33,051 nucleotides of DNA from IMG/VR virus record IMGVR_UViG_3300048625_000098, positions 1-33,051 of that record; one strand, 5' to 3'. Below the pieces are notes generated by a model. That model saw nothing but the letters and a program-made list of their open reading frames with translations. It had not been told where the DNA came from and searched no databases. Below, piece after piece: positions 1,956 through 29,991 of the stretch. The stretch comes from a virus. A program made the translations under genes and the position numbers. Numbering within the stretch: position 1 is the stretch's first letter; every line of letters begins with the position of its first letter.

Positions 1956-2708
1956 TTAAATTATTTGTCCGTTTTCATCTAATGTCATATCCATATCAGC
2001 CAATTGATGGCAAAACAATTTGTATGCATCCGCTTTGCATCCTGCTTTCCATAATTCAAAGTCATTGTATTTGGGCCGTAATCGTTTTGATATTTCAACA
2101 CGATCTGATTCTGGGCATTGCCAAATTTCATATTTGACCAAATAATCATATAGGTGTGCCAATCCGCCGGCTGTCCATTCAAATTTTTGCCCTGTTTGAT
2201 CCGCCAATTTTATTCTTTTAACGTATGAATTAACATTTGCAATGGCCAATGCTTTCAATTCATCATCCGTTGGAACAGGTTTGACAATTTCTGGTTCCGG
2301 CTTTTTTACATTCTTTGTTTCCTGCCTTGCATATTCAATGTATGCGTTCATTATCCGGCCAAAATATTCACACGAAAAATTCTCATAGCATTTGCAATCA
2401 GTATTCAATTTGCCTGCAACTGCCATTTCAAATGCAATGGCTATTTCCTCAGGTGTTTGGTTGCCATAATTTGATTTAATAAAGGCTAACAAAACATATT
2501 TTTCCTCATCTGTCGGCATATTTGATCCACGCAGGCCAACCATAAGCATTGCCATACGCAACACCTGTTTTAAGTCATCCTCAGAACGTGTCCTGATGTT
2601 TGGTGTGCTTTGTGCCTTTAATATCAAATTGGCTGTTCCTTTACCAATTTCTAAGGGCTTCAATTCTTGCTGCACTTGTGCCAAGTTTTTCACCGGTTGA
2701 ATTTCCAT
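1956..2708 (-). CDS. conserved phage protein next to the replication initiator, unknown function
   Basis: 250 residues from ATG 2708. I chose this start because residues upstream in the frame are a shadow of the preceding gene and because ATG 2708 has the AACAACA leader seen at two other starts (6311, 6554). The protein is mostly helical and has a Cys pair-rich segment (TDCKCYENFSCEYFGRIMNAY), followed by a Pro/Glu linker (KPEPEIVKPVPTDDEL) and a C-terminal helical half. The layout (helical domain, linker, second helical domain, directly after a DUF4373-like initiator) fits a helicase loader or replisome organiser. That is an inference from position only, and no catalytic motif is visible. 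It ends 3 bases before the methyltransferase start. Confidence 0.7.
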   Translation of the reverse strand: MEIQPVKNLAQVQQELKPLEIGKGTANLILKAQSTPNIRTRSEDDLKQVLRMAMLMVGLRGSNMPTDEEKYVLLAFIKSNYGNQTPEEIAIAFEMAVAGKLNTDCKCYENFSCEYFGRIMNAYIEYARQETKNVKKPEPEIVKPVPTDDELKALAIANVNSYVKRIKLADQTGQKFEWTAGGLAHLYDYLVKYEIWQCPESDRVEISKRLRPKYNDFELWKAGCKADAYKLFCHQLADMDMTLDENGQII

Positions 2709-3327
2709 TGTTGTTGAATTTATTTTTGTTTGCCATCCATGTGCTAATACGCCTGCTAATATCAAAGAATTTTTCTGATTGCCATCTTTCTTTGCCTTTT
2801 GCGTTTTTCTCAGTCCAATAAGATTTGAAATTTTCAAATTCTGATCCTAGTGTTTGAACGTGTGGTGACAACAGGTCACTAAACAATTTTTCTTTTACTA
2901 TTATTTCATTTTCTTTTATTTCATTTACTTTACTTTCCTTTCCTTTGTTGAACGGTCGTTGAACGGTTGTTGAAATTCGTTTTTCTGCTGATGCTTTCCC
3001 GGCCAATTTGCGTTGTTCCTTCATTCGGAAATATGGTTCCAAATACACCAACATTTTTGGCGAAAAGAATTTGTGTTCCTCATCAATTTCAAATAATTCG
3101 TATTTGATAATTGTCGTTCTAATTTTGGTTTCAGATACCCCAAATTCATCTGATAACAAATCCAAGTCATCCATTGGGTACATCAAATCCTGTTGCTCTC
3201 TTAGTGTTTCTAATAGCATAAAATAAATGCCATATCCTTCAACTCCTAGTTCCCTGCGTAATCGCCTAATTTTTCGATCGTGTCGTGCATTACAGAAATG
3301 CGGGAAATAAAATGCCTCTTTTTCCAT
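2641..3327 (-). CDS. replication initiator-like protein (DUF4373 / Lin1244-Lin1753-type N-terminus)
   Basis: 228 residues. Residues 1-100 carry the pattern typical of Bacteroidota and Firmicute phage DUF4373 proteins: EAFYFPHFCNARHD, then KIRRLRRELGVEGYGIYFML, a winged-helix-like region and the LEPYFRMKEQRKLAGKASAEKR stretch. A Lys/Glu-rich linker follows, then a C-terminal part with FKSYWTEKNAKGKERWQ and SRRISTWMANKNKF, which resembles the C-termini of DnaD/replisome-organiser type proteins. It most likely binds the origin or loads the replicative helicase, although no origin repeats are obvious inside it. Its 3' end overlaps the next start by 68 bases. It begins 1 base after the 62-residue gene, behind the structured RNA/terminator. 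Confidence 0.75.
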   Translation of the reverse strand: MEKEAFYFPHFCNARHDRKIRRLRRELGVEGYGIYFMLLETLREQQDLMYPMDDLDLLSDEFGVSETKIRTTIIKYELFEIDEEHKFFSPKMLVYLEPYFRMKEQRKLAGKASAEKRISTTVQRPFNKGKESKVNEIKENEIIVKEKLFSDLLSPHVQTLGSEFENFKSYWTEKNAKGKERWQSEKFFDISRRISTWMANKNKFNNNGNSTGEKLGTSAARIEALRNW

Positions 3328-3328
3328 T

Positions 3329-3517
3329 TTAATTTTTATTTAATATACACCAATTAAAAAAATCCATATCTGTTTGAGAATTTTGATATTCAGGATACCA
3401 TTTTTCCATAACAATTATATAAACACTATTTGGTGTGCACATATTACTGCTAGGATTTGCTATTTTATAAAGATTGTCTGATACTTTTAATAATTCATTT
3501 TGTGTTAAATATTCCAT
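3329..3517 (-). CDS. small protein of unknown function
   Basis: 62 residues, no recognised family, no membrane segment. It has several aromatic residues and three cysteines (SSNMCTPNSVY, FFNWCILNKN). Its ATG lies only 8 bases after the oligo-U run of the preceding terminator hairpin. It can therefore only be transcribed by read-through of, or regulated passage through, that structure, and it is the first gene of the replication block. The stop is 1 base from the next start, which indicates translational coupling. Confidence 0.55.
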   Translation of the reverse strand: MEYLTQNELLKVSDNLYKIANPSSNMCTPNSVYIIVMEKWYPEYQNSQTDMDFFNWCILNKN

Positions 3518-3524
3518 TTTTTTT

Positions 3525-3564
3525 AAAAAAAAAGCCTGAATGCGTAGGAGTGCAAACAGGCTTT
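3525..3564 (-). terminator. rho-independent terminator (hairpin 2 of the structured RNA)
   Basis: Perfect 8-bp stem AAAGCCTG/CAGGCTTT with an 18-base loop, followed on the minus strand by a run of about nine T. It lies between the end of the early operon (stop at 3636) and the first gene of the replication block (start 3517). Confidence 0.75.
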
Positions 3565-3620
3565 GTGGTTCTTAAACCCAATTAATCACCGGAAAACTCC
3601 TACCCTTTCCGCTGATTATG
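3525..3620 (-). ncRNA. structured RNA: two hairpins with complementary loops, ending in a terminator
   Basis: Minus-strand reading. Hairpin 1 pairs 3618-3613 with 3588-3583 and 3611-3606 with 3595-3590 (one C-C mismatch), with loop 3605-3596 containing GTAGGAGT. A short GGTT/AACC hairpin may form in the linker. Hairpin 2 is a perfect 8-bp stem (AAAGCCTG/CAGGCTTT, 3564-3557 with 3538-3531) with an 18-base loop containing ACTCCTAC and a following T-run. The two loop octamers are exactly complementary, so a kissing-loop fold or an alternative pairing is possible. A TATATTTG -7 box at 3631-3624 would start an RNA right at the foot of hairpin 1, about 95 nt long. It may act as a small RNA or as an attenuator for the replication genes. 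No known RNA family was recognised. Confidence 0.6.
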
Positions 3621-3623
3621 ACA

Positions 3624-3631
3624 CAAATATA
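3624..3631 (-). promoter_or_regulatory. putative -7 box (TATATTTG) for the structured RNA
   Basis: Exact match to the Bacteroidota -7 consensus TAnnTTTG. No clear TTTG/TTG lies at the usual distance upstream, so the -33 element is weak or absent. The box would place the transcription start at about 3620, just before hairpin 1. Confidence 0.45.
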
Positions 3632-3635
3632 ATAA

Positions 3636-3911
3636 TTAAATCATAATCACACCCTTTAATGGCTTAAATTTAAACAGGTTGCCATATTGCGGATGTTCCA
3701 ATACAAATTTTCTTGCGTAATGTGGTGCCATATTATTGTTCACCTTAAATGGATCATTGTTTGACCTGAATGAATATTCAAAACGCATTTGCTCAAATAT
3801 GTACTTTGAACCAATCTGTCTGCGACCTTCTTTTGCCATTCTGATTGCAATCATTTTGTACAACTCATAGATGTGTTTGTTGCTTTGGTCGTATTGCTGA
3901 AAGTTTACCAT
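3636..3911 (-). CDS. conserved small phage protein, unknown function
   Basis: 91 residues. It has the pattern of a widespread small phage protein family found near replication and recombination genes: NKHIYELYKMIAIRMAKEG, IGSKYIFEQMRFEYSFRS, then FKVNNNMAPHYARKFVLEHP ahead of a basic end. No enzymatic motif is visible. The Arg/Lys/Tyr-rich helical character suggests nucleic-acid contact, which is only a guess. It is the last gene of the early operon before the structured RNA and terminator. Confidence 0.7.
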   Translation of the reverse strand: MVNFQQYDQSNKHIYELYKMIAIRMAKEGRRQIGSKYIFEQMRFEYSFRSNNDPFKVNNNMAPHYARKFVLEHPQYGNLFKFKPLKGVIMI

Positions 3912-27912: not shown

Positions 27913-29991
27913 TTAAACCACAAAAAAATCAGAACGATTTTTGTATTTGGTATAAACCCCATATCGGATTGCATCCATTAGGTGATTGTGTTTGTCTATT
28001 GGCTTATTTATAATCGTTCCATCCTTTAATTGTTCCCAAAAATAAAACTGAAATTCATTGTGCAAATTGCTTGATTCCTTTGAACAAATCACCTCGTGTT
28101 CCTTTAATAAACTAATCCCGGCCTTGATTGATCCTTCACCTTTGATTGCAGGAACGGCCAAAATATCCATCTGCCTTAATTCCTCAATTGATTTGGGTTC
28201 CGCAGATTCACAATAAATTATGTGTTCATTTATTTTCTTTTCTTTTAGGAAATCGGCAATGTCACGATTGGTCATGCCCTTTTTGTACATGATTTCATGG
28301 ATGTACAATTTATCCCCCACCTTTGCCAACTGCACAATGGCCGTTGGATCGTGACTGAATCCAAAATCCAATCCGTAGAACACATCATCAAATTCAGGAA
28401 ATTCCGCCTTTGGAATGAATTGCCAATTAGGGAATATTTGGCGATCACTAAACACGGCACGTTTCCCCTCTCCGTAAACTCTCCAATAATCCGGATCCTT
28501 TGCCTTTAATCTTTCGATTTCATTAACCAATTCAGCCGGTAAAAACTTATTATCCAAATACGTTGTGATCCACGTGTCGCAATCATCACGTGTGATGACC
28601 TCATCATAAATCCAATGCACCGGATCGGATGGGTTGAAATCGCAAATCATTTCATCCGTTGTCCGCATCAATAACTGCCTGAAATCCTCATGATCTAATT
28701 CATTTACCTCATTGCAATAGCAGATATTTCGTTTCCGGCCCCTGATCTTTTGTGGCTCATCAACTGAAAGAAATTCAACAACGTGGTTCCCAAACGTGTA
28801 CGTGTTTTCCGATTTGTTGTGTTGGCCCACATACAGGATGCCCAAATTATCGAGAATTTCAAGAAAGTCACGTTGAACTGATCCTTTCAATGCCGGCAAT
28901 GTTTTCCGTACAATTGAAATGACCAATGGTTTTTTGGATGATGTAAGTTTATAAATCAGGTATTGACACAGGGCATAGGTTTTCCCTGAATTATGTGAAA
29001 TAATATTGTCTGTTGTGGCTAAAAAATTGTGAAACTCATCAACCTCAATATCATATACATTTTCATGTATATTTTCAAAAATTACATCTTTTATTAAATT
29101 TGAATTTAAAGCAAATGCCTCCACGTTCGATTCCCCACAATATCTTTTATTAGTGAAATTGACACGTTGTATTTTTTTGCTAATTCTTGTTTCTGAACTA
29201 CATATGGCTTGTATTCTTGACGGATTGCTAAAACCTGACTTTCTGTTAATTTGGCCATTCCATTTTTCGATCCGTTGTTTAATGATTGTCGATTCTGATT
29301 TAACATATGATCCAAATTTTCCCTTCTTGTAACCCATTCCAAATTTGAAATGCGATTGTCGTCCCTGTTGTTGTTTATGTGATTGACTTCTAATTTGTTC
29401 AATGGATTTCGAATAAATGCCTGTGCCACTATTCTGTGCACTTTTATTGTACTTAATTTTCCATTGATTATAATCATAGTTCGATAATATCCGTTTGCAT
29501 CTTTTGCCGGCTTCATAATTCGAACCTGATGTGAATTTTTGTAATTCATTGTGGCAATTCGGCCTAAACTGCTTGCCTGATAACGGCCGTTTGTTTGCGG
29601 AATTTCTTTCCACAATTCGTTTGGCAATGTCAATTGCTTTAACATATCCGTTTTTTGTAAACCATTTGTGATCATATGTACACGTTATTTTTTGATTATT
29701 AATTAATACAAATGTAATACATTTATTACCAATATGTTCACCCGTGTATATAAACTTATTTATGATTTTACGTTCAACGATTTTGTCATCATCGCTTTTG
29801 CAATATACCATTTGCCCAATTTCTATTTCAGAAATGGGTATGTATCCATCAATAGTATTGATCAAAGTATCACCTTTCAGGCAACGTGTTCCGCCCTGAT
29901 GTACTTTGATTCTTTTAGTGCTGTTTAATGTCTGATAAAACTGAATGTTGCATTTCTGCCCTATTCGTTTTCGATTGTCGCCGGTGTCCAT
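27913..29991 (-). CDS. terL: terminase large subunit with an intein in the Walker A motif
   Basis: Precursor of 692 residues; the spliced protein would be 394, a normal TerL length. The N-extein ends ...KVHQGGTR and the C-extein resumes SGKTYALCQYLI, so removing residues 37-334 restores the Walker A loop GGTRSGKT. Further TerL motifs: NICYCNEVNEL (Walker B region), ICDFNPSDPVHWIYDE, and the RuvC-like nuclease with YGLDFGFSHDPTAI, IYCESAEPKSIEEL and HNHLMDAIRYG supplying acidic residues. It cuts and pumps DNA into proheads. It cannot hydrolyse ATP until the intein is removed. ATG 29991 overlaps the small subunit gene by 31 bases. Confidence 0.93.
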   Translation of the reverse strand: MDTGDNRKRIGQKCNIQFYQTLNSTKRIKVHQGGTRCLKGDTLINTIDGYIPISEIEIGQMVYCKSDDDKIVERKIINKFIYTGEHIGNKCITFVLINNQKITCTYDHKWFTKNGYVKAIDIAKRIVERNSANKRPLSGKQFRPNCHNELQKFTSGSNYEAGKRCKRILSNYDYNQWKIKYNKSAQNSGTGIYSKSIEQIRSQSHKQQQGRQSHFKFGMGYKKGKFGSYVKSESTIIKQRIEKWNGQINRKSGFSNPSRIQAICSSETRISKKIQRVNFTNKRYCGESNVEAFALNSNLIKDVIFENIHENVYDIEVDEFHNFLATTDNIISHNSGKTYALCQYLIYKLTSSKKPLVISIVRKTLPALKGSVQRDFLEILDNLGILYVGQHNKSENTYTFGNHVVEFLSVDEPQKIRGRKRNICYCNEVNELDHEDFRQLLMRTTDEMICDFNPSDPVHWIYDEVITRDDCDTWITTYLDNKFLPAELVNEIERLKAKDPDYWRVYGEGKRAVFSDRQIFPNWQFIPKAEFPEFDDVFYGLDFGFSHDPTAIVQLAKVGDKLYIHEIMYKKGMTNRDIADFLKEKKINEHIIYCESAEPKSIEELRQMDILAVPAIKGEGSIKAGISLLKEHEVICSKESSNLHNEFQFYFWEQLKDGTIINKPIDKHNHLMDAIRYGVYTKYKNRSDFFVV
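28990..29883 (-). other. intein (298 residues) inserted in the TerL P-loop
   Basis: Starts at Cys (CLKGDTLINTIDGYIPISEI, block A) and has block B (TCTYDHKWFTKNGYVKAIDI), block F (NVYDIEVDEFHNFLATT) and block G (NIISHN followed by Ser of the C-extein). The boundaries are the codons 29883-29881 (Cys1) and 28992-28990 (Asn298). The stretch between blocks B and F (roughly 29640-29115) is Lys/Arg/Ser/Asn-rich with no recognisable domain in this frame, because the same DNA encodes an HNH endonuclease in the +1 frame. The splicing halves together are only about 120 residues, the size of a mini-intein. Confidence 0.9.
29106..29675 (-). CDS. HNH homing endonuclease encoded out of frame inside the TerL intein
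   Basis: 189 residues from ATG 29675 (a second ATG at 29645 would give 179), in the +1 frame relative to terL. NUMOD4 motif: LPNELWKEIPQTNGRYQASS and LGRIATM. HNH core: STIKVHRIVAQAFIRNPLNK, EVNHINNNRDDNRISNLEWV and TRRENLDHML. C-terminal DNA-binding helix-turn-helix: KLTESQVLAIRQEYKP and ELAKKYNVSISLIKDIVGNR TWRHLL. A stop (TAA, 29687-29685) closes this frame just upstream, so it is a separate gene with its own start and stop. It should cut intein-free terL alleles and so spread the intein. Confidence 0.88.
   Translation of the reverse strand: MITNGLQKTDMLKQLTLPNELWKEIPQTNGRYQASSLGRIATMNYKNSHQVRIMKPAKDANGYYRTMIIINGKLSTIKVHRIVAQAFIRNPLNKLEVNHINNNRDDNRISNLEWVTRRENLDHMLNQNRQSLNNGSKNGMAKLTESQVLAIRQEYKPYVVQKQELAKKYNVSISLIKDIVGNRTWRHLL

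Follow-up and report, generated by a model that had tools for sequence, protein, structure and literature searches.

A conserved RNA with complementary hairpin loops, probably a kissing-loop attenuator, upstream of the replication genes of putative flavobacterial siphophages

The window, i.e., the whole stretch of DNA analysed here, comprises 33,051 nt of the virus record IMGVR_UViG_3300048625_000098. The element under study lies on the minus strand, which also carries the main genes of this 33-kb record, and consists in the 5′ to 3′ direction of a promoter box, hairpin 1, a small hairpin 2, the terminator hairpin 3 and a U-tract. The features of the locus are the following:

3636-3911, minus strand: 91-aa gene located 5′ of the promoter (phrog_13625)
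3624-3631, minus strand: promoter -7 box TATATTTG, identified by sequence, fitting the Bacteroidota consensus TAnnTTTG (PMC7366714)
3583-3618, minus strand: hairpin 1, by folding; 6 bp, a G.G mismatch, 6 bp and a 10-nt loop
3596-3603, minus strand: loop-1 octamer GTAGGAGT, kissing strand 1, Watson-Crick with loop 2 across related RNAs
3567-3578, minus strand: small hairpin 2, GGTT-TAAG-AACC, fold -2.4 kcal/mol; comparative support is weak
3531-3564, minus strand: hairpin 3, the terminator stem, fold -16.4 kcal/mol
3544-3551, minus strand: loop-2 octamer ACTCCTAC, kissing strand 2, in the loop of hairpin 3
3525-3533, minus strand: U-tract of the predicted intrinsic terminator, identified by sequence; a U-rich tract is present in every related element kept
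3329-3517, minus strand: 62-aa ORF, the first gene after the leader, starting 7 nt past the U-tract; an insert specific to this phage
2641-3327, minus strand: replication initiator of the Lin1244_N family (Pfam PF14297, 1.9e-15; phrog_2562, replication initiation protein)
1956-2837, minus strand: second gene of the replication operon, cluster C0, conserved and found 3′ of the RNA in most loci

Hairpin 1 reads TAATCA-G-CGGAAA-GGGTAGGAGT-TTTCCG-G-TGATTA (3618-3583), and the 5′ end of the RNA is predicted to lie near 3618. Hairpin 3 reads AAAGCCTG-TT-TGC-ACTCCTAC-GCA-TT-CAGGCTTT (3564-3531), with an 8-bp outer stem, an internal loop, a 3-bp inner stem and an 8-nt loop. The loop octamers of hairpins 1 and 3 complement each other at all 8 positions, and neither has a further copy in the 33-kb genome, even as a 7-mer. 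Compared with dinucleotide shuffles, the fold of the region is 4 SD better (z -4.06; 0/200). In an energy model that lacks kissing loops, a plain nested duplex of the octamers can be had only at a cost of about 11 kcal/mol, so that pairing between the intact hairpins is preferred. The initial annotation had described two hairpins with an 8-base loop complement, a T-run and a promoter box. All of these are present, on the minus strand; its two hairpins correspond to hairpins 1 and 3, but as a description of the whole structure it had missed the small third hairpin at 3567-3578.

As for the surrounding genes, the C0 ORF as listed overlaps the initiator ORF and its start codon is therefore uncertain; the C0 protein has no Pfam match. 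Relatives of phrog_13625 occur in phages whose hosts differ widely (Mesorhizobium, Acinetobacter, Mycobacterium and Prochlorococcus). Elsewhere in the window, the 692-aa ORF of the terminase large subunit (27913-29991, minus strand) carries an intein-like insert ahead of the Terminase_3 domains (PT-HINT; Pfam Intein_splicing 5.5e-7, which is below the curated cutoff). In related loci, the RNA is followed by a Lin1244_N or other initiator-like gene and then by C0 or a helicase-like gene, and these replication-operon genes were found 3′ of the RNA wherever enough sequence is present. The slot between terminator and initiator is a cargo site that holds a different small ORF or a methyltransferase-like gene in different phages, or none; examples are positions 3329-3517 of the window and loci L002, L003, L007, L013, L049 and L059. 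Since cargo genes separate the RNA from the initiator in some phages, the initiator need not directly follow the leader.

The occurrence of the element was analysed using the initiator as search query, which gave 68 IMG/VR loci, a set independent of the type A sequence pattern described below. One of the loop pairs is found in 65 of them. The three exceptions are L061 and L062, whose initiators are merely 50% identical, and L067, whose contig starts 32 nt 5′ of the gene. A scan that made no use of the window sequence and looked for two hairpins with a U-tract and at least 7 matching bases between the loops returned 90 matches in 590 kb of related loci; shuffles gave 4-8 and the antisense strand 22. 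Most of the sense-strand matches lie directly 5′ of a replication gene, and in the majority of the 68 loci the RNA was recovered in this way before the initiator. Many further elements came from two pattern scans in which loop pairing was not demanded, while 11 unique type A pattern matches without loop pairing were rejected as unrelated DNA lacking promoter and terminator. The region used as a DNA query in a distant search against cultured phages gave chance matches only. Likewise, no match was found in 5 bacterial genomes with distant initiator relatives, and no convincing one in 396 genomes of a single bacterial order, although few candidates were scored per genome in both cases and this evidence is weak; the single match from the bacterial-genome search (L228) is a plain terminator without a partner loop and was discarded. 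One 59-kb contig (IMGVR_UViG_3300027969_000114; L079 and L173) carries two initiator genes, different from each other and each preceded by its own, distinct kissing leader, and perhaps represents two ~30-kb phages joined in assembly, or a tandem prophage. Overall, the carriers appear to be flavobacterial siphophages in which the leader RNA is conserved before the replication operon.

The related RNAs were then compared base pair by base pair. Among the 65 distinct RNAs of type A, the type found in the window, the 7 loop-loop pairs are Watson-Crick in 455/455 cells, a figure conditioned on the filter, which retained only elements with 7 or more matching loop bases. The three central loop pairs vary, with both sides changing together (AU33/GC27/CG3/UA2, GC41/AU24 and GC57/UA8), and the central triplets AGG, GAG, CAG, GGT, TAG and CGT each occur with their complement. 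Shuffled and slid controls gave far lower loop complementarity. The pattern fixed the GT and AG of loop 1 as well as parts of the stems, and invariance at these positions is thus partly imposed. In the type A alignment, compensatory changes occur in 7/12 pairs of the hairpin 1 stem, whose G.G mismatch is missing in L037 and L052. Hairpin 3 has double changes in 5/8 outer pairs, where the alignment is imperfect, and in 3/3 inner pairs, and hairpin 2 is paired in 76% of cells with one doubly changed pair, its alignment being uncertain. Type B comprises 18 distinct RNAs with other stems and another loop layout; here RNAalifold itself chose the loop pairing as the consensus (8 pairs, 5 double-changed, 0 broken). 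Compensatory loop changes in related phages, proposed at the outset as the decisive test, are therefore strongly in evidence in both types. Taken together, these comparisons indicate that a real conserved RNA with loop pairing is almost certainly present.

The asymmetry of folding between sense and antisense was used in place of G-U/A-C counts, which are 9 vs 6 in hairpin 1 and blurred by the alignment in hairpin 3. Folding is better on the sense strand for 65/65 RNAs of type A and 16/18 of type B. These results bear on the idea of an ordinary terminator next to a chance hairpin, or of a DNA element such as an origin. Replication genes do follow directly, and hairpins are common at origins too; against this, both loops and stems covary, the U-tract and the promoter are found on one strand only and the sense strand is the more stable in every type A RNA, which makes such an explanation scarcely credible.

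The spacing of the parts is equally regular. A TAnnTTTG or TAnnTTG box is present in 106/117 related elements, nearly always 4-8 nt 5′ of hairpin 1, and most of the others read TATATTTA there. The linker between the kissing hairpins measures 14-19 nt. In 116/117 elements an ORF lies no more than 23 nt away, with a median of 10 nt from the end of the U-tract to its ATG. A sigma-70 promoter scan gave nothing useful, its model being outside Bacteroidota promoters. Promoter, terminator and gene thus stand in the order of an attenuator leader, and a further promoter is absent as judged by inspection only. As far as the sequence can tell, the layout of box, hairpins, terminator and ORF is the anatomy of a 5′ leader. 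Box, spacing and covariation together bear out the earlier description of a compact RNA that runs from promoter box to terminator, has kissing loops and occupies a leader position before the replication block.

That description had left open a small RNA or an attenuator. The two are not mutually exclusive, because termination gives a short RNA and read-through an mRNA; both parts of the proposal therefore stand, and the constant spacing of about 10 nt to the first ORF favours the attenuator. A purely trans-acting small RNA would be a terminated 95-nt molecule that acts on host or phage targets and whose loop pairing serves only to fold and protect it. Its own promoter box and terminator and its compact, stable fold would suit this role. 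However, the loops vary freely among close relatives, which makes a conserved loop target unlikely, they have no other 7-nt match in the phage genome, and the terminator always ends about 10 nt before the operon start, as that of a leader would. We consider this explanation unlikely. The variability of the loops also leaves unsupported a ribosomal targeting or mimicry, once thought conceivable from the AGGAG and CTCCT of the window loops. This is one of about 14 loop variants, and the others are unrelated complementary pairs such as GTGGTAG/CTACCAC, CTCACTAC/GTAGTGAG and CTCTCGAC/GTCGAGAG; as loop sequences are not conserved, Shine-Dalgarno mimicry was rejected.

A third architecture was found in a cultured virus, Flavobacterium phage 11b (NC_006356). 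Upstream of its gene 63, at about 33.62-33.72 kb, TATATTTG is followed by a hairpin containing CGGGCAGG, by a terminator hairpin containing CCTGCCCG, and then by a U-tract and the ORF start. Relatives of gene 63 display the same layout with altered stems, and two of them have other loop pairs (GGTAGAG with CTCTAC, and GTGCAG with CTGCAC). Another relative of this locus (L241) has a promoter box before an initiator-like gene, together with an inverted repeat resembling a terminator, AATGAGAC...GTCTCATTTTT; the scan found no loop match there. Candidate leaders with GGTGGAA/TTCCACC are present in the Polaribacter phages Freya_1 and Danklef_1, directly 5′ of regulator/replication genes. They are to be taken as leads only, and phage 11b is the sole cultured-phage case backed by relatives. 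When five cultured phages were scanned under strict promoter-plus-kissing criteria, 2 matches came up against a shuffle mean of 0.5, which alone proves nothing. Freya_1 has a second candidate kissing leader, likewise a lead only, CCGCCAAG/CTTGGCGG (L232, around 32550), before gene 46, which is not a replication gene, and this leader type may serve other operons too.

We then considered how the loop types, of which there are at least 14 across the group, are distributed. On a tree of 69 initiators we count at least 25 changes of loop type and at least 9 of architecture, rough figures given that the tree comes from a short search and many of its forks are weakly supported. Close relatives can differ sharply: L038 and L040 are of different architecture despite 94% identity of the initiator and 91% of the upstream region, and L045 and L051 have different loops at 96% and 93%, respectively. 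Average identity among RNAs that share their loops reaches 97%, vs 80-90% for the flanking genes. The swapping of RNAs between conserved flanks suggests cassette exchange among discrete RNA types. In silico, loops bind their own partners with -10.4 and foreign ones with -1.5 kcal/mol on average, with strong foreign exceptions (A5 with A3, C2 with A4 and B3 with B4).

These observations raise the possibility of a self-recognising trans regulator, whose loop types are alleles: released RNAs would pair with nascent leaders of the same type and drive their termination. This reading, which we hold only tentatively, is a refinement of the attenuator and compatible with it, and might give copy-number control and superinfection exclusion. 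The near-orthogonality of the variants, their frequent change on the initiator tree and the exchange of RNAs between kept flanks all speak for it, and termination of replication genes driven by an RNA has a precedent in P4 CI (PMC4825925). On the other hand, the loops would be concealed by intramolecular pairing, and swapped variants could result from recombination and drift alone.

Known systems offer partial parallels. Rfam 15, a scan suggested with the initial annotation, gave no match above the gathering threshold in the window, the type A and B loci or phage 11b, Freya and relatives; the best sub-threshold match had an E value of 0.19 and 15 bits vs the 100 needed. We found no description of this leader type in the open-licence literature, the motif lists of microbiome scans (e.g., PMC8040213) being outside this comparison. 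The closest architecture is that of the guanidine-IV riboswitch (GGAM-1/mepA leader), in which a hairpin loop likewise kisses the loop of the terminator hairpin; the pairing is proposed to hinder closure and can thereby lead to read-through, and the length of the linker is critical (PMC11611296, PMC7736828). The likeness is one of architecture and not of membership: that riboswitch has highly conserved nucleotides suggesting a ligand site, whereas the loops of our element vary and pair throughout, and conserved ligand-site nucleotides or an invariant aptamer-like core were not found. The seqA-seqC immunity system of P4 shares with our element a leader RNA, short-range complementarity and termination before replication genes (PMC4825925). 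There, however, a processed CI RNA pairs with two leader sites elsewhere, whereas here the complementary sites are the loops of one terminator-containing 95-nt RNA, and the Rfam model of P4 CI / C4 antisense immunity RNA matched none of the sequences scanned. In the Gifsy-1 IsrK phage locus, too, the terminated transcript is a small RNA and the read-through product an mRNA (PMC4825925); the gene context differs, and the passages cited describe no kissing loops.

Finally, the prohead RNA of phi29 is a phage RNA with two mutually complementary loops (PMC7357161), and a structural RNA of this kind would use them to join copies into dimers, chains or rings. The prohead RNA serves in packaging, pairs its copies by 4 bp and is not a replication-gene leader; our element always precedes the replication operon, never packaging genes, has 7-8 loop pairs instead of 4 and keeps its second loop inside the terminator. 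An oligomer-forming role is thus very improbable.

On balance, we favour the reading that flavobacterial siphophages have this element as the leader RNA of their replication operon, probably working as a kissing-loop attenuator. Comparison among the phages establishes the structure of the RNA, the pairing of its loops, its orientation and its position before the replication genes. According to the proposed mechanism, transcription would begin at hairpin 1, and hairpin 3 would act as an intrinsic terminator ending about 10 nt before the first ORF. The replication genes would be reached from this promoter only upon read-through by the polymerase, the RNA of about 95 nt being released otherwise; a working terminator makes read-through necessary for their expression unless another promoter exists. 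The loops of hairpin 1 and of the terminator hairpin would join by 7-8 Watson-Crick pairs. Most likely, pairing during formation of the terminator would strain the short linker and compete with closure of the outer terminator pairs, thereby tuning read-through. Such a competition would resemble that in the guanidine-IV riboswitch, presumably without a ligand, since the loops vary, are paired throughout and show no invariant pocket. The balance might be shifted by polymerase speed, by a phage or host protein recognising the kissing shape, or by RNA from other copies. Pairing might either raise or lower read-through, and the covariation would fit pairing within one RNA and between RNAs alike. 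Alternatively, the terminator could be unconditional, with the replication genes expressed from elsewhere.

The present analysis adds a strongly covarying RNA family, absent from Rfam. The phages concerned are widespread and belong to Bacteroidota, a phylum with little-known phage regulation, and the RNA appears to gate their replication genes. Owing to its third architecture in the cultured Flavobacterium phage 11b, the family is open to test now. Its loop variants, which pair well with themselves and mostly poorly with others, are ready-made orthogonal parts for RNA attenuators and would provide a clean test of self/non-self recognition by phages through RNA loops. It is conceivable, if somewhat doubtful at present, that every lineage bears a single loop pair out of at least 14 near-orthogonal ones, exchanged as cassettes, and that the RNA set free by one genome controls termination on other genomes that have the same loops. 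If true, RNA alone would control copy number and set up superinfection exclusion groups among Bacteroidota phages.
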